From contig NVXU02000045.1 in assembly GCA_002734065.2 (NCBI GenBank), forward strand, positions 1 through 64,000: DNA of 64,000 nucleotides. Reading direction: 5' to 3'. The notes under the pieces were generated by a model. That model ran no database searches, was not told the origin of the DNA, and saw only the letters and a program-made list of their open reading frames with translations. This document shows positions 4,015 to 61,961 of the stretch, one piece after another (the first letter of the stretch is position 1; every line of letters begins with the position of its first letter). The DNA is from Fluviicola sp. (lineage in GTDB: Bacteria; Bacteroidota; Bacteroidia; Flavobacteriales_D; Crocinitomicaceae). Made by a program: the position numbers and the translations under genes.

Positions 4015-4023
4015 GTTTTTTTT

Positions 4024-4057
4024 GGAGCTTTAGAGTGTTAGAGTTTTCGAGCGTTGG
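4024..4057. repeat. Degenerate octamer array
   Basis: About four 8-bp units of the form GAGNNTTN (complement of NAANNCTC) lie just after the trigger factor stop. Related arrays lie at 6583-6612, 36072-36155, 53452-53492, 61146-61190 and 61926-61961. Further along the same gap, around 4160-4192, a second palindrome pairs CCTGCC and TGTC with GACA and GGxxxxCAGG around a GGTA loop. Confidence 0.75.
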
Positions 4058-4235
4058 ATTACTTGACTGCTCGACAGCTTAACGAAAAAATCATATTACG
4101 TATACAACAACCTGCGTAAATCATAAAAATCAGCGTCATCAGCGTTCAATTTTGAAGTACCTGCCTATGTCGGTAGACAGGGCAAACAGGTTCGACTACT
4201 TGAGGGTTGAGGTTCTCGAAGCCCGATTTCCATTC

Positions 4236-6510: not shown

Positions 6511-6612
6511 ATTAGCACGCAGATTTCGCAGATATTCGCAGATTTCACTAAGTTGAGTAGGTTTTTCCTATAAGAAGTCAAATCCAAAACTCTAATGCTC
6601 CAAAACTCCAAC
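6511..6612. repeat. Two short-period arrays in the gap before sppA end
   Basis: First comes a 9-10 bp array of CGCAGATTT-like units (about 6513-6547). Then at 6583-6612 there is an octamer array with units such as TCCAAAAC and TCTAATGC. The second array reaches to within two bases of the sppA stop codon at 6614. The gap otherwise holds no gene. Confidence 0.75.
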
Positions 6613-22800: not shown

Positions 22801-25800
22801 AACCAACCAACTGCGCTAGTTGACCCTCCAATTATTGACCCTACCTTTATTTTAACAGACTTTTGCGCGGGTCTACCTAATTCAGCAACAGGAATAGTTA
22901 CTCCTGGTGGAACATTTACTTTCAATCCTGTTCCAACGGATGGAGCAGCGATTAATACGGCAACGGGAGAAATTACCAATGGAGTTATAGGAGCAACTTA
23001 TTCTGTAGAATATACAACTGCCGCTCCTTGTTCAGCGAGTCTTATTCTGACAGTGAATGTGAACGGCGTTTCATACACAGCAGTAGTTGTTGATGAAAGT
23101 TGTGGTGCTGGTGATGGTTCAATTACATTGACAGCTGCCCCAGCAGGAACTTATACCTATTCTATAGACGGCGGAACAACATCACAAGCAGGTGGAAGTT
23201 TCACAACATTAACGGCTAATACTTACAATGTAATAATCACAGACCCAGTTACAGGTTGTACTGCGACTGGCACAGAGACTGTTGCAAACCTTGGTGGAGC
23301 AACAATTGATCTTGTCACTCCTGTTGATGCATCTTGTAATGCCGTGTGCGACGGAAGTATCACAGTTACCGCTTCAGGCGGAGTCGGGCCTTTGAATCAT
23401 CAATGGCTAGACAACTTAGGAAACCCAATCGGAACGAATGCGAATTCTATCAATAGTCTTTGCGCAGGGAGTTATACCATTGAAGTAACCAACAACGACG
23501 GTTCTTGTTTGGTAACGGCTCCAGCTGTTATTCTTGAACCTGCAGTGGTAGATCCAACCTTTGTCTTAACAGATTTCTGTGCAGGTTCTGCAAATGCAGC
23601 AACGGGAATTGTAACTGCAGGTGGAACATTTGCTTTCAACCCTCTGCCTGGAGATGGAGCAACGATTAATACAGCAACTGGAGAAATTACTAACGGAGTT
23701 ATAGGAGCAACTTATTCTGTAGAATACACAACAGCTGCTCCTTGTTCTGCGAGTCTTATTCTGACAGTGAATGTGAATGGTTTAACTTACACGGCAGTAG
23801 TTGTTGATGAATCATGTGGATTGGGTGATGGTTCAATTACATTGACAGCCACTCCCGCAGGAACTTATACTTATTCAATTGATGGCGGAACAACGTCGCA
23901 AGCAGGAGGAATTTTCACAACATTAACTGCAAACACCTACAATGTAATAATCACAGACCTCGCTACAGGCTGTACTGTGATTGGCACAGAGGCGGTTGCA
24001 AACGTTGGTGGAGCAACAATTGATCTTGTGACTCCTGTTGATGCATCTTGTAATGCAGTGTGCGATGGAAGTATCACAGTTACCGCATCAGGCGGAGTCG
24101 GACCTTTGAATTATCAATGGCTAGACAACTTAGGAAATCCAATTGGAACGAATGCGAATTCTATCAATAGTCTTTGCGCAGGGAATTATACCATTGAAGT
24201 AACAAACAACGACGGTTCTTGTTTGGTAACGGCACCAGCTGTTATCCTTGAACCTGCAGTGGTAGATCCAACCTTTGTCTTAACAGATTTCTGTGCAGGT
24301 TCTGCAAATGCAGCAACGGGGATTGTAACTATCGGCGGAACATTTGCTTTCAATCCTGTTCCAACAGATGGAGCAACGATTAATACAGCAACTGGAGAAA
24401 TTACCAATGGAGTTGCGGGAACGCAATATTCTGTTGAATACACAACAGCTGCTCCTTGTTCTGCAAGCCTCATTCTAACAGTGAATGTAAATGCATTGCC
24501 AGTTCCTGTGATTACTGGGGCTTTAAGTTATTGCCTCGGTGGAAATTCTACACTTGATGCCGGTGCAGGTTATACAATCTATAACTGGTCAACGGGTGAC
24601 GCAACGCAAACAATAACCGTTCTTGCGCAAATAGGAATTACAGTAACCGTAACAGATGCAAATGGATGTGTGGGAACAAGTGCTCCTGTAGATGTGATAG
24701 AATCGACTTCGATAATAACCAATAACATCATTACTATTTGTCAAGGTGGTTCTGCTGTGATTCATGGAAATACGGAAACAGTTGCTGCCATATACTCTCA
24801 GACATTTATTTCAGTTTCTGGTTGTGACAGTATTGCCAATGTAGATTTAATTGTCAATCCAATACCGACTCCAGTGATTACAGGTCCTTTATCCTACTGT
24901 CAAGGCGGTGATGTTACATTAGACGCAGGCGGACCTTTCATCAGCTATTCTTGGAACATCGGAGGAACAAATCAAACATTGACAACAACTTCGGGTACTG
25001 GAATTTCAGTTACCGTAGAAGATGCAAACAACTGCTTCGGTACAAGTCCAACAGTTGATGTTGTAGAATTGCTACCTGTGGTGACTAATTCTACAATGAC
25101 TATTTGTCAAGGAGGTTCTGCTTTAATATTTGGAAATAACGAAACGGTAGCTACTGTTTATACGCAAATTAATGTCGGTCAGAATGGTTGTGATAGTACT
25201 TCCAATGTTACTTTGGTTGTCAATCCATTACCAACTCCTGTGATTACAGGACCTTTAACCTATTGTCAAGGAGCAAATGTTACATTAGACGCAGGTGGAC
25301 CTTTCATCAGTTATTCTTGGAATATCGGTGGAACAAATCAAACATTGACAACTACTTCGGGTACGGGAATTTCTGTTACTGTAGAAGATGCAAACAATTG
25401 CTTCGGTACAAGTCCAACAGTTGACGTGGTAGAATTGTTACCTGTGGTGACCAATTCTACAATGACGATTTGTCAAGGGGCATCAGCATTGATATTTGGC
25501 AACAATGAAACCGTTGCCGCTGTTTATACGCAAATTAACGTCGGTCAGAATGGCTGTGATAGTACATCCAATGTAACTTTGGTTGTCAATACATTGCCAA
25601 CTCCTGTGATAACAGGACCACTTTCTTATTGTCAAGGAGCTGATGTTACATTAGACGCAGGTGGACCTTTCATCAGTTATTCTTGGAACATCGGTGGGAC
25701 AAATCAAACATTGACAACAACTTCGGGTACAGGGATTTCTGTTACTGTAGAAGATGCAAACAACTGCTTTGGTACAAGTCCAACAGTTGATGTGTTAGAA

Positions 25801-27915
25801 TTGTTACCGGTGGTGACCAATTCTACAATGACTATTTGCCAAGGAGCTTCCGCTTTAATTTTTGGAAATAATGAAACTGTTGCTGCTGTTTATACGCAAA
25901 TTAATGTTGGTCAGAATGGTTGCGATAGTACTTCCAATGTTACCTTGGTTGTTGACAACAATCCAGTGATTGACGTTCTTAATTTCACAGAAGAATCTTG
26001 CCTTGGAGACGATGACGGAACGATTGACGTTGTTTCTGTGATTAACGGCTCAGGAACTTACACTTATTCTTGGGACATTGTTCCTGATCCTGCAACGGCG
26101 AATGTTAATTCTCTTTCTCCAGGAACTTACACAGTAACTGTGACGGATGCAAATACAACTTGTCAAACAACGGCGACAACAACCTTGAATGCAGCAGCTA
26201 TTTGTTGTGATGTGGTGATTGATACCACAGGTACTACAGCACCAAGTTGTGGCCAAGCAACAGGAATTATTGATGCAATCGCAACGGGTGGCGACGGAAA
26301 CTATATGTACAGTATAAATGGAGGTCCTTTTGTTGCAAGTGGTACTTTTAACGGTCTTGTTGCAGGCAATTATCAGATTGTCGTGCAAGACGGTTCGGGT
26401 GTTTGTAATGACCTAATTGATGTCGTTCTTGTTGACTTATTAGCACCGACGATTACTTCTGTTGCAGCGACTGATTTGAACTGTAATAATGATAATTCTG
26501 GAGCAATTACAATTGTTGCAAACGGCGGAAACGGAGTGCTGACCTACGGTATATCGGACGGTGTGAATGTGACAACAAACGCAACGGGCATTTTTACAGG
26601 CCTACCAGCAGGTAATTACACGGTGGTTGTAACGGATGCAAACGGTTGTTTTGTCAATGACGTTGCCGTTCTAATTGAACCTACTCCAGTGACTGTTTCT
26701 GCAATTGTGACCAATGTAAATTGTTTTGGTGATGCAACGGGAGAAATTGTTGTTACAGGTGGCGGTGGAACACCTAATTATACATTCTCCATTGATAATG
26801 GAACAACGTGGCTTACAAGTGCAACTTTCAGTGGGTTACTTGCGCAGAATTACGATGTAATGGTACAAGATGCAAACAATTGTCAGTCTTTGGCTAGTGT
26901 TGAGAACATTACAGAACCTACACAATTAGGCGTTGTTGTGAATGCAACAGACGAGCAGTGTTTTGCTGCTTGTGATGGAGAATTGACATGGGCAGGAAGT
27001 GGCGGAACAGCCCCTTATTCTTTCTCATATAATGGGCAGAACGGAAATGCATCGCCAATTTTCAACTTATGTGCATCAAATTACAATTATGTGATTACAG
27101 ATGATTTAGGATGTACTGTTAATGGTTCTGCAACGATTAACCCAGGAATTGAAATTATACCGGGTGTTGTAAGTATCGTTGATGACGGTTGTGATGAGAA
27201 TTGTAGCGGAGAAATTTCTATAACATCCAATACAGGAGTGAGTTACCAAATTACTGGGATGACAAGTCCAACCGGTGATTTTGTTGGTGTCTGCGCAGGA
27301 AGCTACAGCATTACTATTTTTGATGCAAACGGTTGTTTCACAATGGCAACAGCGCAAGTTGGAACAATGCCCGTGACAGAAGCTAATTTTACATTCTCAC
27401 CGGGTATTATTACGACCTTAGAGAATGAAATTACTTTCACAAACGCTTCAACAAATGCGGATGTTTACAATTGGACAATCACTGGGCCGAATGGTTACAA
27501 TGAGTCTTTCTCATCGGAGAATTTGACACATTTATTTCCATTAGATACTGGAACTTATACAATTTGCTTAACGGCGATTAACTCAACGGGTTGTACAGAT
27601 GTAATTTGTAGAAGTTTAATTGTGCGAGATGCAGAGGTACTTTACGTTCCAAATACGTTTACACCAGATGGCGATGAATTCAATCAAACTTTCAGAGCTT
27701 ACGCAATGGGAATTGATATTTACGACTACGAAATGTTGATTTTTAACCGTTGGGGAGAAATCATCTGGGAATCTCACGATGTTTTAGTCGGTTGGGACGG
27801 AACGTATAAAGGAAAAGTGGTACAAGTCGGAACTTACACGTGGAAGATTACCTTCAAAGATTTTTACGATGATGATAGAAAGATTTATCATGGTCATGTG
27901 AATATTGTGAGGTAG
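19897..27915 (+). CDS. Giant modular adhesin, T9SS type B cargo
   Basis: This 2,672-residue surface protein starts at ATG 19897, not the GTG at 19891, because MKKILLGIIGITFIGQFANSQ is an ordinary signal peptide. Modules in order: a jellyroll resembling a reelin/MAM subrepeat (~50-220), a proprotein-convertase-P-like domain (~310-480), SprB-like repeats with a second MAM-like insert (~770-970), a pair of 238-residue repeats, four 122-residue repeats, more SprB-like repeats (~2030-2490), a PKD-like domain (~2500-2580) and a type B sorting domain (VPNTFTPDGDEFNQTF ... HGHVNIVR). The SprB resemblance suggests adhesion or gliding, but no enzymatic motif is visible. Cysteines are frequent in each repeat. 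Confidence 0.9.
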   Translation: MKKILLGIIGITFIGQFANSQCTVSAIATPSPIVCGESVILSAYGSSTGSLVLDEDFNTGGFGPGWSSTPGAVSFANPCSPAGVDGTPHAWMDNNTSVPRALISAPYDLSTATAGVTVCFDMLFATQGNAAPCEGPDEPDEGVYLQYSTDGGVTWVTINYFDPNGGNDPQLTTWNNYCFPLPPAAITNNTMIQWFQSADSGADYDHWGIDNVQIFMNDLNSEVVWLHDGYSYGVGSGGGDNPTPVTPTVTTTYTSQITTGTGQVCTQDVTVVVTSPVFDVNMTAAPAIVCVGNCATISGTAQIIQDPGGIETYENNEFDIVTGGSASVNINVQGINTNTITTGLIQNITINGFDFSGTFVCTNFGGCPCGTGSVGFGSTCSLDPSSFTVTLTAPGGCTIILAPAGVANGNYSNTVFVPVGGTAFNGTFPSGGVWDPQDPMTNFNGCNPNGVWTLSFDAPGIGIGIGTLFGWSITFDDPPIYQPVCTTWSPTAGLTSPSTLVTDACPATSTDYVLTVGNCTPGCPTYTQTFTIIVDPCVCTPPNLIITPLQACSPLTVDLSTAIGAGSDPATLTYYATQLDAQNGTNPITTTVSVSGSYWVRAEDPTDPLCFLEYEIIVTISTLTYSASVVDENCGAGDGQINLTPNPAGTYTYSIDGGTTSQAGGSFTGLVANTYNVIITDPATGCTVTGTETVANLGGPAITSVVPTNPTCNGVCDGTITVTATGGTLPYTYTWYDGIGTIVGTNSATITGLCAGNYSVDVSDATGGSTQLFFDDFESGAAGWNLNSVQGAQGADPNFFQVNDTEGGVAAGGCGIGGNGDATLHITSVFNPAGGAAYDAGGLCGFLFCPQTNVQAESPLINTVGQTGLTLNFDFIAGGAPPTDQASVWYNCGAGWTLLSTLFSGTAGCTGQGLWTAFSAPLPPLCDGITNLQVAIRWENNDDGAGSDPSVAINNIEVVTSAGASCVVNQPTALVDPPIIDPTFILTDFCAGLPNSATGIVTPGGTFTFNPVPTDGAAINTATGEITNGVIGATYSVEYTTAAPCSASLILTVNVNGVSYTAVVVDESCGAGDGSITLTAAPAGTYTYSIDGGTTSQAGGSFTTLTANTYNVIITDPVTGCTATGTETVANLGGATIDLVTPVDASCNAVCDGSITVTASGGVGPLNHQWLDNLGNPIGTNANSINSLCAGSYTIEVTNNDGSCLVTAPAVILEPAVVDPTFVLTDFCAGSANAATGIVTAGGTFAFNPLPGDGATINTATGEITNGVIGATYSVEYTTAAPCSASLILTVNVNGLTYTAVVVDESCGLGDGSITLTATPAGTYTYSIDGGTTSQAGGIFTTLTANTYNVIITDLATGCTVIGTEAVANVGGATIDLVTPVDASCNAVCDGSITVTASGGVGPLNYQWLDNLGNPIGTNANSINSLCAGNYTIEVTNNDGSCLVTAPAVILEPAVVDPTFVLTDFCAGSANAATGIVTIGGTFAFNPVPTDGATINTATGEITNGVAGTQYSVEYTTAAPCSASLILTVNVNALPVPVITGALSYCLGGNSTLDAGAGYTIYNWSTGDATQTITVLAQIGITVTVTDANGCVGTSAPVDVIESTSIITNNIITICQGGSAVIHGNTETVAAIYSQTFISVSGCDSIANVDLIVNPIPTPVITGPLSYCQGGDVTLDAGGPFISYSWNIGGTNQTLTTTSGTGISVTVEDANNCFGTSPTVDVVELLPVVTNSTMTICQGGSALIFGNNETVATVYTQINVGQNGCDSTSNVTLVVNPLPTPVITGPLTYCQGANVTLDAGGPFISYSWNIGGTNQTLTTTSGTGISVTVEDANNCFGTSPTVDVVELLPVVTNSTMTICQGASALIFGNNETVAAVYTQINVGQNGCDSTSNVTLVVNTLPTPVITGPLSYCQGADVTLDAGGPFISYSWNIGGTNQTLTTTSGTGISVTVEDANNCFGTSPTVDVLELLPVVTNSTMTICQGASALIFGNNETVAAVYTQINVGQNGCDSTSNVTLVVDNNPVIDVLNFTEESCLGDDDGTIDVVSVINGSGTYTYSWDIVPDPATANVNSLSPGTYTVTVTDANTTCQTTATTTLNAAAICCDVVIDTTGTTAPSCGQATGIIDAIATGGDGNYMYSINGGPFVASGTFNGLVAGNYQIVVQDGSGVCNDLIDVVLVDLLAPTITSVAATDLNCNNDNSGAITIVANGGNGVLTYGISDGVNVTTNATGIFTGLPAGNYTVVVTDANGCFVNDVAVLIEPTPVTVSAIVTNVNCFGDATGEIVVTGGGGTPNYTFSIDNGTTWLTSATFSGLLAQNYDVMVQDANNCQSLASVENITEPTQLGVVVNATDEQCFAACDGELTWAGSGGTAPYSFSYNGQNGNASPIFNLCASNYNYVITDDLGCTVNGSATINPGIEIIPGVVSIVDDGCDENCSGEISITSNTGVSYQITGMTSPTGDFVGVCAGSYSITIFDANGCFTMATAQVGTMPVTEANFTFSPGIITTLENEITFTNASTNADVYNWTITGPNGYNESFSSENLTHLFPLDTGTYTICLTAINSTGCTDVICRSLIVRDAEVLYVPNTFTPDGDEFNQTFRAYAMGIDIYDYEMLIFNRWGEIIWESHDVLVGWDGTYKGKVVQVGTYTWKITFKDFYDDDRKIYHGHVNIVR
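23081..24507 (+). repeat. Two near-identical 714-bp repeats in the adhesin
   Basis: The unit starting at 23081 recurs at 23795, an exact 714-bp (238-residue) offset. Both copies share long runs such as AGTCTTTGCGCAGG and NNDGSCLVTAPAVI. A diverged third copy precedes them from about 21776 and is interrupted by a MAM-like insert. The pair ends where the next repeat series begins at 24508. Confidence 0.92.
24508..25971 (+). repeat. Four 366-bp repeats in the adhesin
   Basis: The phrase GTGATTACAGG-like recurs at 24508, 24874, 25240 and 25606, an exact 366-bp (122-residue) period. The last three copies are nearly identical at DNA level; the first has diverged. Each carries two cysteine-containing motifs (YCQGG and TICQGGSALIFGN). 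Confidence 0.95.
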
Positions 27916-35399: not shown

Positions 35400-35439
35400 G
35401 TTTTGCGAGTGACATTTTTTTTGATAATACAAGATTCAT

Positions 35440-37869
35440 TCACTTGCGAGAAAGTGCCAGAAGTGTACTGATAAGAACAATACTGATGGAACTTAAAGGC
35501 ATTAAAATAGCGGCAACTAAAGGAGTAAGGTTTCCCGATATGGCGAAGGCCAAACCAACAATGTTGTAAACGATAGAGAAAATGTAGCATATTTTCAAAA
35601 CGCTTTGAGAAAATTTTGCGGTTTCTATGTGATTTTTGAGTGAATAGAGTTTTGACGCTTCCAAAATAGCATCAGATTTGGGAGAAAATCGAAAGATGTC
35701 TTCAGAAATGGCAATTCCTGTATTGGCAACCTCCAAAGCTCCAGCATCGTTGAGTCCATCACCAATCATTAGCACTTTTCTCTGTCCATCTTGCAATTTC
35801 TTGATGTAATCCAATTTATCCTTCGGTGATTGCTCAAAAAGAAGGTGCTTGAGTTCTGGTACTTCTTTCTGTAAAATTTCTTTGTCCTTATCTTTATCAC
35901 CAGAAAGAACATGAAGTGTAAATTTCTTTGCCAATTCTCTCAGAACTTCAATAATACCAGGTCTAAATTCTGATTGAAAAACAAAACGACCTAAATAGTT
36001 ACCATTGATAGAAAGATGACTTGCTGTCTCGTTGGCAATTGGTTGAGCGTCAGAATGAACAAAAGAAGAAAAGGAGCTTTGGAGTGTTGGAGCTTTCGAG
36101 CGTTGGGAAAACCAATGCTCTAAAACTCTAGAGTTCCAAAACTCTAACGTTCCAATTTTTACTGTCTGATTCATTATTTCTCCTTCGATTCCTTTTCCTT
36201 CAATTTCTTGAAATTCAGTCAATTCAAGATTATTGGGAGTTGTCATATCCTTTAAATGACGAACAATAGACTTAGAAAGTGGGTGCGTGGATGAATTTAC
36301 CAATAAAATAACTTGGTTGATTTGTTCTTCAGTTAAAGGTGCACCGATAAAATCAACATGATTGCTACTATTTGTTGTAAGCGTTCCTGTTTTGTCAAAA
36401 ACAATGTCGGTTGTTGCATTGATTTTTTCAATGACCTCATTGTTCTTTAAATATAACCCTTTTCTGCCAAGAACACGCATAATATTGCCGTAAGTGAAAG
36501 GTTTCGACAAAGCCAAAGCACAAGGACAGGCGACAATCAAAATAGAAACAATAATTTCAGTTGTTCGGGCAGAATCATAGATGTACCAGTAAATCCCAGC
36601 GCCCAAAGCAATGGTAAGAAGAGCAAAAAGGAAGTAGGTTGACAGTTTATCCTTTCCTGTATCCTTCTTTTTCTCTTCTTTATTGACTTCGTTCCACAAT
36701 TGAGTAAGATGACTTCGATTGCTTTCTTTCTCGACAACTAATTCGCTTTTTTTTCCCAATAATTTTCCACCTGCATAGATAAAATCTCCTTTCTTTTTAC
36801 TGATTGGTATGGATTCTCCCGTAACAAAACTGTAGTCAATTTTAATTTCGTCAGAAAGTAAAATAGCATCGCAAGGTAAAACTTCTTGATTGCGAATGAT
36901 GATTTTGTCGCCAATTTTTACTTGGTCAATTTCTACAATTATTTCTTTGCTTCCCTCTAGTTTCGTCACTGCAACTGGGAAGTAGGCGGTGTAGTCTCTT
37001 TCGAAAGACAAAGATTGATAGGTTTTGCTCTGAAACCATTTACCAATCAAGAGGAAGAACACAAAACCAGCAAAACTGTCAATATAACCGGTCCCTTCTC
37101 CAGCGAAAATCTTGAAAACACTCTGCGCATAGAGGGCAAGAATACCAATAGAGATAGGCACATCTAGGTTGATGCTTCGGTATCTTAATGCTTTGAATGC
37201 AGAAATAAAGTAATCACTGGCAGAGTAGAGAATCACTGGGACAGAAACCAAAAAGGCAAGATAAGCAGAGAATTGGCTGATTTCAGGATTGCTTTTCGCG
37301 ATGTCAAAATATTCAGGAAAAGTCCATAGCATAATGCTACCAAAAGCAAAACCAGCAACTCCTAATTTGTAAAGGTAGGTTCTGCTTTGCTTCTTTTTTT
37401 GCTCCTCTCTACTACCAAAATTAGGTTCGTATCCTATTTTAGAAAGAAGATTCGCCAATTCTGAAAGTGGCATCTCTTTGTCGAAAATAAGCGTCGCTTC
37501 CCGCTTGGGAAAGTTCACTTGACACGATTTTACTTGTGGGTCTATTCTGTGTAGATTCTCCAGTAAATAAATACAAGAAGAACAGTGAATCTGAGGTAAA
37601 AACAAGGTGCTTCGAGCAGATGTAGCGTCTTCAAAGTCAATGTATTTCTTGCGAATGTCTGCAACATCCAAGAAAGCGTATTTGTGTTTATCTGCTTCTT
37701 TCGGTCGTGTGCCTGCTTGTGATTCTAAGTTGTAAAAAGTTCCTAAATCGTTGGATGAAAGTAATTGGTAAACACTTTTGCAACCATTGCAACAGAATGC
37801 TTTGTCATCAAGGTTAAATCCCTTACCGATGACATCATCGCCACAGTGATAACAGGATTTTTGACTCAT
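35440..37869 (-). CDS. ccoI: CcoI, copper-transporting P-type ATPase
   Basis: CcoI exports Cu(I) for cbb3 oxidase assembly. The 809-residue P1B-type ATPase has an N-terminal CYHCGDDV and CCNGCKSVYQLL motif, an HMA-like domain with HCSSCIYLLENL, the membrane copper site ACPCALAL, the phosphorylation site DKTGT, the nucleotide motif STHPLS and GDGLNDAGAL. I chose ATG 37869 (MSQKSCYHCGD) over 37938: it overlaps the hemN stop in the classic ATGA form, and family members begin this way. A 28-residue segment near residues 575-605 is encoded by an intergenic-type repeat (see 36072-36155). The phosphorylation and hinge motifs are intact. Confidence 0.93.
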   Translation of the reverse strand: MSQKSCYHCGDDVIGKGFNLDDKAFCCNGCKSVYQLLSSNDLGTFYNLESQAGTRPKEADKHKYAFLDVADIRKKYIDFEDATSARSTLFLPQIHCSSCIYLLENLHRIDPQVKSCQVNFPKREATLIFDKEMPLSELANLLSKIGYEPNFGSREEQKKKQSRTYLYKLGVAGFAFGSIMLWTFPEYFDIAKSNPEISQFSAYLAFLVSVPVILYSASDYFISAFKALRYRSINLDVPISIGILALYAQSVFKIFAGEGTGYIDSFAGFVFFLLIGKWFQSKTYQSLSFERDYTAYFPVAVTKLEGSKEIIVEIDQVKIGDKIIIRNQEVLPCDAILLSDEIKIDYSFVTGESIPISKKKGDFIYAGGKLLGKKSELVVEKESNRSHLTQLWNEVNKEEKKKDTGKDKLSTYFLFALLTIALGAGIYWYIYDSARTTEIIVSILIVACPCALALSKPFTYGNIMRVLGRKGLYLKNNEVIEKINATTDIVFDKTGTLTTNSSNHVDFIGAPLTEEQINQVILLVNSSTHPLSKSIVRHLKDMTTPNNLELTEFQEIEGKGIEGEIMNQTVKIGTLEFWNSRVLEHWFSQRSKAPTLQSSFSSFVHSDAQPIANETASHLSINGNYLGRFVFQSEFRPGIIEVLRELAKKFTLHVLSGDKDKDKEILQKEVPELKHLLFEQSPKDKLDYIKKLQDGQRKVLMIGDGLNDAGALEVANTGIAISEDIFRFSPKSDAILEASKLYSLKNHIETAKFSQSVLKICYIFSIVYNIVGLAFAISGNLTPLVAAILMPLSSISIVLISTLLALSRK
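36072..36155. repeat. Octamer array inside ccoI, in frame
   Basis: About 33 bp of 8-bp units (GAGCTTTG, GAGTGTTG, GAGCTTTC, GAGCGTTG) face about 44 bp of roughly complementary units (CCAATGCT, CTAAAACT, CTAGAGTT, CCAAAACT, CTAACGTT) across a short spacer. This could fold into an imperfect hairpin. The same kind of array lies in gaps at 4024, 6583, 53452, 61146 and 61926. Here it is translated as LEFWNSRVLEHWFSQRS and neighbours without a stop. Confidence 0.85.
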
Positions 37870-39245
37870 ATTGTTTTGGAGAACATGTTTTCTCGCTGTT
37901 GAGAGTCGGCTAAATCTTGGTCGAATGCCATGCAGCAATTTCTAACAAAAGGAATTCCAGCTTCAGTAACTGTCAATTGATTATTCTCAATGACGACCAA
38001 ATTATCTTCAACCATTCCAGCAAGTCTGTTGACAATCGCTGTTTGCAATTCTTTGTTGGGAGAATCACTGTCAAATGTCGTTTCAAAATGACACATTAAA
38101 TCGAGAATATACTGACGGATTTCTAAATCAATTTCATTGAGAAGGTGTCCTCTAAAAATGGGGATGATTCCTTGATTCACAATTTCGATGTACTTTTCTG
38201 TTGATTTTTCATTCTGCGCGAAGCCAAACCAGCTGTCAGAAATGGCAGACATTCCCAATCCGAGCAAAAACTTGGTGTTTTGAGTGGTGTAACCCATAAA
38301 GTTTCTGTGTAAGTTTTTTTCTTTGAACGCAATGGCTAAATCATCGTGCTCCAGAGCAAAATGATCCATCCCAATCTCGATGTATCCTTCTGCTTCGAGC
38401 ATTTTTTTTGCTTCTTCGTACAAGGCTCTTTTTTCAGAATCTTGTGGCAAATCGGAGTCGTCAAAACCTCGCTGTCCATTGCCTTTTATCCAAGGAACGT
38501 GTGCGTAACTGTAGAGTGCAATCCGGTCGGGACGCAATTGTAATGTTTTTTCTACAGTATCAATAATATCTGCCATTCTTTGCTTCGGTAAGCCAAAAAC
38601 AAGGTCATGACTGATGGATTTATAACCAATTCGTTTGGCATTCTCATGCACTTTTTTAACATCCTCAAAAGGTTGAATTCTGTTGATTGCTTGCTGTACC
38701 GTTGGACTGTAATCCTGAATACCCAAACTCAATCTTCTGAAACCAAAAGCGTGCAATTTCTCCAAATGTTCTTCGGAAGTATTGTTAGGATGCGCCTCAA
38801 AACTGAGTTCAGAATGATTGGGGTCTATTGATTCTTTGCCAAATATCGCTTTCACCAAACGAATTAATTCATCTGGAGCGAAAAAAGTCGGAGTTCCACC
38901 ACCAAAATGCAATTCTTTGATATCTGGCGAGAAGTTGAATTTTGCGGTGTACAATTCCCATTCTTTAATTACTGCATCAATATATGGCCCCTCAACAGCG
39001 TGATTTTTTGTTATTCTTTTATGGCAACCACAAAACGTGCACAAACTTTCACAATAAGGCAAGTGAATGTACAAGCTCATTTCTTCAGAGTTATATTCTT
39101 TAGAATTTTTAGCAATCGTTTTTACCCAGTCATCAACTGATAGCGGATTGTTTTTCCAAAATGGAACCGTAGGATAGGATGTGTATCTAGGACCTGGAAC
39201 ATTGTATTTCTCTACTAAATTCTTCACTTTCCAATATTTGTACAC
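37866..39245 (-). CDS. hemN: Oxygen-independent coproporphyrinogen III oxidase
   Basis: HemN is a radical-SAM enzyme that decarboxylates coproporphyrinogen III to protoporphyrinogen IX without O2. The 459 residues start near VPGPRYTSYPTVPFW, the family's usual N-terminus. The cluster motif is HLPYCESLCTFCGCHK (CxxxCxxC), followed by LHFGGGTPTFF. No ATG is available: the listed start is a GTG at 39245, and a GTG at 39227 is equally plausible because a promoter-like TAACTTTG (39245-39252) overlaps the longer version. It is coupled to ccoI by an ATGA overlap and supplies heme for the oxidase under low O2. It is divergent from the Fnr-like gene. Confidence 0.93.
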   Translation of the reverse strand: MYKYWKVKNLVEKYNVPGPRYTSYPTVPFWKNNPLSVDDWVKTIAKNSKEYNSEEMSLYIHLPYCESLCTFCGCHKRITKNHAVEGPYIDAVIKEWELYTAKFNFSPDIKELHFGGGTPTFFAPDELIRLVKAIFGKESIDPNHSELSFEAHPNNTSEEHLEKLHAFGFRRLSLGIQDYSPTVQQAINRIQPFEDVKKVHENAKRIGYKSISHDLVFGLPKQRMADIIDTVEKTLQLRPDRIALYSYAHVPWIKGNGQRGFDDSDLPQDSEKRALYEEAKKMLEAEGYIEIGMDHFALEHDDLAIAFKEKNLHRNFMGYTTQNTKFLLGLGMSAISDSWFGFAQNEKSTEKYIEIVNQGIIPIFRGHLLNEIDLEIRQYILDLMCHFETTFDSDSPNKELQTAIVNRLAGMVEDNLVVIENNQLTVTEAGIPFVRNCCMAFDQDLADSQQRENMFSKTI

Positions 39246-44469: not shown

Positions 44470-44523
44470 GTGAATGTATTTCGTGTAGTTTTAGGAATGA
44501 ATTTTACGAAGTAAAAATAACCG

Positions 44524-44642
44524 AATCCTCCCCCTAGCCCCCTCCAAAGGGGGGAGAAGCTGACAATTGGATCCGTCGTTAGAGTTCTATCTTTTATTTT
44601 GAGTATGGGTTTCCCCCTTTGGAGGGGGCTAGGGGGAGGATT
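44524..44642. repeat. G/C-rich palindromic element, copy A
   Basis: A ~33-bp left arm (AATCCTCCCCCTAGCCCCCT then CCAAAGGGGGGAG) and a ~32-bp reverse-complement right arm (44611-44642) enclose 54 bp. Each arm also has an inner palindrome around CCAAAGG. The second copy is at 56057-56161. It contains no gene; the open frame across it on the minus strand is the repeat itself. The arms are strikingly GC-rich against the AT-rich surroundings. Confidence 0.95.
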
Positions 44643-44677
44643 TACCAATTTTGATTTTTTTTGCTATTTTTGTTCCG

Positions 44678-53391: not shown

Positions 53392-53451
53392 TTAGTAATG
53401 ATTATTTTTAATAAGTTATTTGTTCTTTTCCCTCTCCGTAAACCACGTCAG

Positions 53452-53492
53452 TCCAACACTCCAAAGCTCTAACAGTGTCAGCGCATCGAACG
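53452..53492. repeat. Octamer array
   Basis: Units TCCAACAC, TCCAAAGC, TCTAACAG and a weaker tail make the same 8-bp family as at 4024 and 61146. It lies just downstream of the E1 gene and could act in transcription end formation. Confidence 0.65.
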
Positions 53493-56056: not shown

Positions 56057-56161
56057 AATCCTCCCCCTAGCCCCCTCCAAAGGGGGGAGTCCATAATAGG
56101 AAAAAAAATGAACTTACAAAAGTCTACTTCTTTCCCCCTTTGGAGGGGGCTAGGGGGAGGA
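56057..56161. repeat. G/C-rich palindromic element, copy B
   Basis: The arms (56057-56089 and 56132-56161) are nearly identical to those of copy A at 44524-44642; the 42-bp centre differs. It lies between the divergent E1 gene and the plus-strand genes that follow. Such a conserved-arm, variable-centre layout suits a mobile palindromic or MITE-like unit, but no target duplication was identified. Confidence 0.95.
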
Positions 56162-61066: not shown

Positions 61067-61145
61067 TTTTGGTGATTCAGGGATTTAATGTTCTAATGAT
61101 TTAATAAAACAGAGACCTTGGTGTTTTTCCACGAGCTGTCTAAAA

Positions 61146-61190
61146 ATCTAATGCTCCAAAGCTCGAATGCTCTAACAATCCAACGCTCTT
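61146..61190. repeat. Octamer array, left of the lipoprotein gene
   Basis: Units ATGCTCCAAA, GCTCGAAT, GCTCTAAC, AATCCAAC and GCTC give an 8-bp period. Its partner at 61926-61961 has the opposite orientation, so the pair brackets one gene as imperfect inverted repeats. Confidence 0.75.
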
Positions 61191-61925: not shown

Positions 61926-61961
61926 TTGGAGCATTGGAGCATTGGAGCACTAGAGCTTTGG
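61926..61961. repeat. Octamer array, right of the lipoprotein gene
   Basis: TTGGAGCA, TTGGAGCA, TTGGAGCA, CTAGAGCT and TTGGC units, inverted relative to 61146-61190. It lies 11 bases after the lipoprotein stop. Confidence 0.75.

Follow-up and report, generated by a model that had tools for sequence, protein, structure and literature searches.

The ccoI-like copper ATPase gene of Fluviicola sp. contains, translated in frame, a repeat of the kind that lies mostly between the genes of this genome. We estimate at roughly 60% the probability that a two-armed octamer array of the intergenic type entered the gene as a single 78-bp piece beside a native TTGGA, and that the encoded passenger peptide now sits in an N-domain loop that is probably flexible. 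Positions refer to the window, the whole stretch of 64,000 nucleotides that was analysed; the assembly could represent a metagenome bin. This genome is designated G000 and its relatives G031, G014 and so on, while L numbers stand for fetched stretches and C numbers for contigs.

The gene occupies 35443-37938 on the minus strand (an open reading frame of 832 aa) and is flanked, as read from the translated proteins, by a ccoN/O-like gene on one side and a hemN-like gene on the other. From the CPC, DKTGT, HP and GDGLND motifs and the P1B fold, the product was classified as a CopA-type P1B-ATPase, and it matched the Pfam families E1-E2_ATPase (3.3e-32), Hydrolase and ATPase-cat_bd. The closest solved fold to the predicted model was ATP7B (7xuk; Z 24.7, rmsd 6.1, 601 aligned), followed by the bacterial and plant copper ATPases 7r0g, 8q75, 4bbj and 3rfu. 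The motifs C471-P472-C473, D515-KTGT and G726-DGLND showed no variation in an alignment of 38 CcoI sequences, and no second close CcoI was found in the own genome. Since the frame is intact, the catalytic motifs are conserved and a second close CcoI is absent, we infer that the pump still works and that the insert is tolerated.

The net insertion measures 78 bp (36073-36150, minus strand) and adds 26 residues (597-622), preceded by KIG and followed by FSSFVHS. In the simplest placement, read on the gene strand, AAAATTGGA is followed by the 78 bp (window 36150 down to 36073) and then by TTTTCTTC; because the native TTGGA (codons ATT GGA) resembles the start of a unit, the ends of the insert are uncertain by a few bases and neighbouring placements fit equally well. 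The first arm, on the plus strand, consists of the four octamers GGAGCTTT GGAGTGTT GGAGCTTT CGAGCGTT followed by GG (36073-36106), with periods of 8 and 16. It is separated by a fold-back loop, unpaired in the DNA fold (36107-36111), from an opposed arm on the minus strand, in which the tandem-repeat scan identified the five octamers TTGGAACG TTAGAGTT TTGGAACT CTAGAGTT TTAGAGCA (36116-36155); the outermost bases of this arm, 36151-36155, are probably native. Units within the arms differ from one another. The element folds back as DNA (z −3.27), and the RNA of the gene strand over the element reached −32.2 kcal/mol (z −4.31). The first-pass annotation had described an octamer inverted pair, of the same kind as the repeats in the gaps, inside the copper ATPase gene, and the arms, the fold-back and the genome-wide repeat counts given below all agree with this description. 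Its span of 36072-36155 nearly coincides with the octamer region (36073-36155), the net insertion being narrower, and its reading without stop or frame change stands, with the added length corrected from about 28 residues to 26. As to other identities, an intrinsic terminator (GC-rich stem, then T run) was rejected, with 0 found in 35400-38000 and a mean of 1.5 in shuffled sequences, and so was a known RNA family, no Rfam match to the element being found up to an E value of 1.

The presence of the insert in related organisms was examined with the CcoI protein as query against 60 genomes, the own one included, of which 43 gave a match. Besides the own gene, 29 matches were followed to their loci, and the 28 proteins readable across DKTGT were aligned, one fragment being left out; all 28 lacked the 26 residues. 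The residues were likewise absent in 37 of 37 stop-free proteins from a second set, partly overlapping the first, for which 46 were picked from 68 loci in named genomes (those ranking highest being mostly from Crocinitomicaceae and other Flavobacteriales) and 9 were dropped for internal stops. The alignment of related CcoI proteins that had been proposed as a check thus speaks for an insertion, and the outcome named in advance as contrary to it, the same residues carried by unrelated DNA, appeared in none of the aligned relatives. By parsimony the insert is a recent gain, presumably a gain in this genome rather than a loss in all others. The nearest relatives by CcoI identity are G031 (78%) and G014 (81% over part of the protein), and at the DNA level neither has an octamer array at this site. 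The spans compared there were 180 and 189 bases in this genome against 98 in G031 and 108 in G014, and the differences of 82 and 81 bases are made up of the 78 bp and small length changes alongside.

In an AlphaFold2 model of CcoI (38 sequences, mean pLDDT 76.5, pTM 0.63), a strand (591-596) is followed by a low-confidence helix (598-613), residues 605-633 with pLDDT below 50, and another strand (638-644). The segment 605-633 includes 18 of the 26 insert residues, and the model suggests that most of the insert probably forms a flexible N-domain loop, though a low pLDDT would be expected of a segment shared by no aligned relative, loop or not. The location next to the actuator domain that was first given must be abandoned: the insert is C-terminal of DKTGT (515-519), away from the actuator, in what we take to be the nucleotide-binding (N) domain of P-type ATPases. 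Of the surface loop that was proposed at the same time, the model supports, short of proof, the flexibility.

The octamers of ccoI belong to a family with the unit consensus TTVGAGYD, in which YD occupies positions 7-8 in 355 of 378 internal units. The sequence TTNGAGNNTTNGAGNNTTNGAG, a run of three units, was counted 190 times in the own genome and its reversed control 11 times, while 198 relatives have 0-4 copies per genome (4 in G014 and 1 in G031), indicating that the octamer expansion is specific to this genome. A BLAST comparison of the own genome with a 106-bp query covering the ccoI element, scored for 40 of 103 first-look candidates, gave matches at no fewer than 44 other places with E < 0.001 (best E 1.2e-9); with the limit raised to 10 there were at least 58. 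None of the scored matches was an identical donor array for the ccoI element, the best showing 77% identity over query positions 15-88 of 106.

A survey covering the window and some 370 kb of fetched stretches took in 85 elements, the stretches being picked from the listed places of TTNGAGNNTTNGAGNNTTNGAG and from BLAST matches, with contigs late in the list under-sampled. It yielded 94 arrays of 3-10 units of 8 bases each, with variable ends and lengths. Two arms were found in 9 of the 85 elements, which places the ccoI element among the few. Genes predicted by a simple ORF caller cover about 85% of the surveyed bases, yet 77 of the 85 elements are intergenic, 50 with co-oriented, 20 with convergent and 7 with divergent neighbouring genes; 5 lie in ORFs and 3 at edges. 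By bases, 85% of the surveyed DNA falls in ORFs and 8.2%, 1.7% and 2.7% in tandem, convergent and divergent intervals, respectively. In raw counts, 90 gene 3′ ends face an array, 43 of them within 25 bp, and 64 5′ ends do so, 16 of them within that distance. Two of the five elements in ORFs are left out of the coding tally: the one in L184, upstream of a later start that is the likelier one, and the one in L175, within an ORF of 96 aa. Open frames made up 272 of 492 in the 82 other elements and 520 of 1020 in flanking controls; selection for translatability does not seem to act on the family. Within the window the survey registered an intergenic array of 5 units at 4022-4059 (plus strand) that continues in register into TNGAC units, intergenic arrays of 4 units at 6582-6611 (minus) and 61926-61955 (plus), a short array of 3 units at 53451-53472 (minus), and an array of 6 units at 61138-61183 (minus) ahead of where the next gene probably starts.

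The arrays are polar, passing in register into non-GAG units chiefly at one end. Of the 94 arrays, 71 keep the xTxGA core in the next in-register unit downstream and 13 keep it upstream, while at six off-register offsets on the downstream side the figure is 0-3; the second downstream unit keeps it in 18 of 94, 11 of these ending in C. This one-end polarity fits rewriting of arrays in place, and equally a structured element having a TNGAC end. The succession GAG, GAT, GAC in one 8-base register was observed at the downstream end of several arrays, among them those at window 4022-4059, L161 156, L168 3000 and L182 9175.

With regard to the origin of the insert, the source would be a two-armed octamer array like those in the intergenic gaps of this genome, and a 78-bp piece of this kind would have been inserted at once next to the native TTGGA, in frame and free of stops, leaving a passenger peptide in the N-domain loop of the ATPase. 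With less confidence we would ascribe the spread and change of the arrays to copying linked to replication or repair rather than to a transposase, candidate routes being template switching and ectopic gene conversion between arrays, together with slippage of units; purifying selection would then leave the copies chiefly in intergenic regions, with a small number surviving in loops that tolerate them. We favour a template switch or array-to-array copying because copy-and-paste from a single master is disfavoured and because growth in place leaves the second arm unexplained. Runs of units shared among 85 arrays exceeded the shuffle mean at length 2 (224 vs 171), length 3 (15 vs 5.4) and length 4 (3 vs 0.1), that is, unit order is common to the arrays weakly, yet above nearly all shuffles. 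The weakness of this sharing indicates that the majority of arrays did not arise recently as copies of a single master, and an excess over shuffles is also expected from whole-array copying. The arm complementarity of the nine two-armed elements was reached by 124 of 1000 shuffles and therefore lends no support to copying from arm to arm.

Growth of the array on the spot, as a degenerate microsatellite that slippage extended from the native TTGGA, appears unlikely. The TTGGA is in register with the units, and identical adjacent units, 33 in number, are more frequent than in any of 500 global shuffles (mean 18.8, maximum 32), the latter pointing to slippage, but the excess is modest against within-array shuffles (mean 26.6; 14 of 500 reach 33). 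Furthermore, the units of the arms are not identical, an opposed second arm is not produced by slippage itself, and no intermediate unit numbers were found at the ccoI site in the two nearest relatives, G031 and G014. Somewhat less probable still is the insertion into ccoI of a MITE or REP-like element moved in trans by a RAYT-type Y1 transposase, for which one may cite the palindromic ccoI element, the dispersal of a family with 85 elements surveyed and the single Y1_Tnp protein of the genome, scoring 23.6 bits and thus barely above the cut-off of 23. Against such movement, the 94 arrays have neither constant ends nor a fixed length (3-10 units), two arms are confined to 9 of 85 elements, unit order is weakly shared, and no target duplication is visible on comparison with the relatives' ccoI site. 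Finally, that an ordinary CcoI loop resembles the repeats by chance is so improbable that we rejected it, for although the loop just C-terminal of the insert differs in length among CcoI proteins, the segment is missing from every aligned relative (28/28 and 37/37) and its matches recur genome-wide (at least 44 other places at E < 0.001; 190 copies of the triple vs 11 of the control).

In-frame octamers were also identified in a DUF255/YyaL-like gene (TNGAG octamers at L196 2976-3005; counterpart L277 in G031) and in a thiE-like gene (L193 2987-3032, in C25 of G000; counterparts L278 in C204 of G031 and L288 in C291 of G014), both named by sequence reading. The peptides encoded by the arrays in the ccoI, thiE-like and DUF255-like genes differ. 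Among 29 aligned DUF255 relatives an insert at that place was found in G031 only, a full-length DUF255 match being absent from G014, and among 21 aligned thiE-like relatives, some of them fragments, in G031 and G014 only, where the inserts are longer than here and made of other octamers at the same protein position. The coding inserts of the relatives thus differ in sequence, being in-register octamers with the core TNGAC as against TNGAG here. As a DNA query in four genomes, the DUF255 insert of G031 gave only its own copy at E up to 0.2, and 8-mers enriched in small samples from related genomes gave no lead.

Comparison of the 85 elements with 43 stretches of relatives gave 11 array sites with both flanks in one stretch, at which units were counted in a single 8-base register with 1000 shuffles per site; the share of occupied sites is biased upward because the relatives' stretches were partly picked for holding repeats. 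At 5 of the 11 sites the relative carries a different vocabulary, each count being reached by at most 1 in 1000 shuffles. These are the intergenic sites L174 (5 TNGAG units here, 4 TNGAC in G014), L193 7802 (6 units here, 5 TNGAC in G031 and 3 in G014) and L202 3060 (4 units here, 3 AATG units in G031), the DUF255 site (3 units here, 4 TNGAC in G031) and the thiE site (4 units here, 3 TNGAC in G031 and 4 in G014). TNGAG units are kept in relatives at 3 of the 11, namely L183 8791 (3 units), L202 3564 (2 units; 3/1000 shuffles) and L191 (3 units in a long interval; 19/1000), and at the ccoI, L192 and L204 sites the relatives' units were not above chance in 1000 shuffles each. The vocabularies are not fully exclusive, since the DUF255 insert of G031 also has two in-register TNGAG units (7/1000 shuffles) and some intervals of this genome have two in-register AATG units (1 to 43/1000).

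From the vocabulary swaps at two coding and three intergenic sites, the site and the sequence of the arrays seem to turn over separately. A tentative extension, to which we give clearly less than an even chance, is that octamer arrays in this genus are lasting sites, block-rewritten to a species-specific vocabulary (TNGAG here, TNGAC or AATG in the nearest relatives) in intergenic and genic positions alike; concerted turnover of dispersed arrays would then repeatedly rewrite the loops of conserved proteins at the peptide level, with ccoI as its newest coding target.

Several other repeats were observed. In a search of 60 genomes the AATG pattern was counted 27 times in G000, 17 times in G014, 6 times in G031 and a single time in G051. 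An octamer array of ATTTAATG lies at the 3′ end of the thiE-like gene (G000 C25:28929-28960; G031 C204:3603-3626), and the family-level relative G036 has long arrays, mostly of perfect TTGGACTA, with 49 pattern matches (C28, C63, C160 and C175). The window itself begins with fourteen near-perfect AACACTC heptamers (1-98), carries twice a second palindrome whose arms contain TCCTCCCCCTAGCCCCCTCCAAAGGGGG (44509-44657 and 56059-56161), and includes an ORF of 2674 aa with a 366-bp tandem repeat (24819-25952; 3.1 copies at 88%).

The ccoI insert shows plainly how a repeat typical of intergenic DNA can turn into protein sequence, no such report from Bacteroidota being among the literature matches listed, and the thiE-like and DUF255-like genes display different repeat vocabularies at one protein position in close species. 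If the swap represents true concerted evolution, the spread and homogenisation of non-coding repeats in bacteria would become testable on close genomes.

Among known systems, STRR (short tandemly repeated repetitive) sequences are dispersed tandem arrays of short degenerate units, mostly intergenic, with heptamer units in cyanobacteria. The present family has the same traits, with 94 arrays of 3-10 units and 77 of 85 elements intergenic, and differs in its unit of 8 bases instead of the cyanobacterial 7. MITEs and REP/BIME elements are short multi-copy palindromes found mostly between genes; the octamer elements are likewise short, numerous and mostly intergenic, and the ccoI copy is palindromic, but constant terminal inverted repeats are absent, a target duplication is not seen at the ccoI site, and the candidate cognate transposase of the RAYT kind is the one borderline Y1_Tnp match. 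Set beside a simple microsatellite, whose nearly identical units grow by slippage, the arrays show a slight excess of identical neighbours, together with differing units and second arms. Among the literature matches listed, judged by title or start of abstract, none dealt with octamer arrays of the present kind, and the literal unit sequences brought up unrelated titles only. The arrays of the heptamer TAACTGA described from Beggiatoaceae, cyanobacteria and five Bacteroidetes (PMC4679880) are, in the available part of that paper, similar in being dispersed, in consisting of few short units and in including Bacteroidetes; they differ in the unit of 7 rather than 8 bases, and that part reports neither in-frame copies in conserved genes nor swapped units at one site. 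Closest to the event in ccoI are the Rickettsia palindromic elements, which, according to the portion of the source available, are palindromes of about 150 bp with a conserved peptide that also occur in frame within conserved genes (PMC10969869). Like these as there described, the octamer repeat is found both between genes and in frame, in the ccoI, thiE-like and DUF255-like genes. Unlike them, it measures 78 bp in ccoI, is built from degenerate 8-bp units whose order is not conserved, is mostly one-armed, belongs to Bacteroidota and encodes different peptides in the three genes. As an event, the ccoI insert therefore resembles the in-frame palindromes in genes already known from Rickettsia, here in a different phylum and with a different anatomy.
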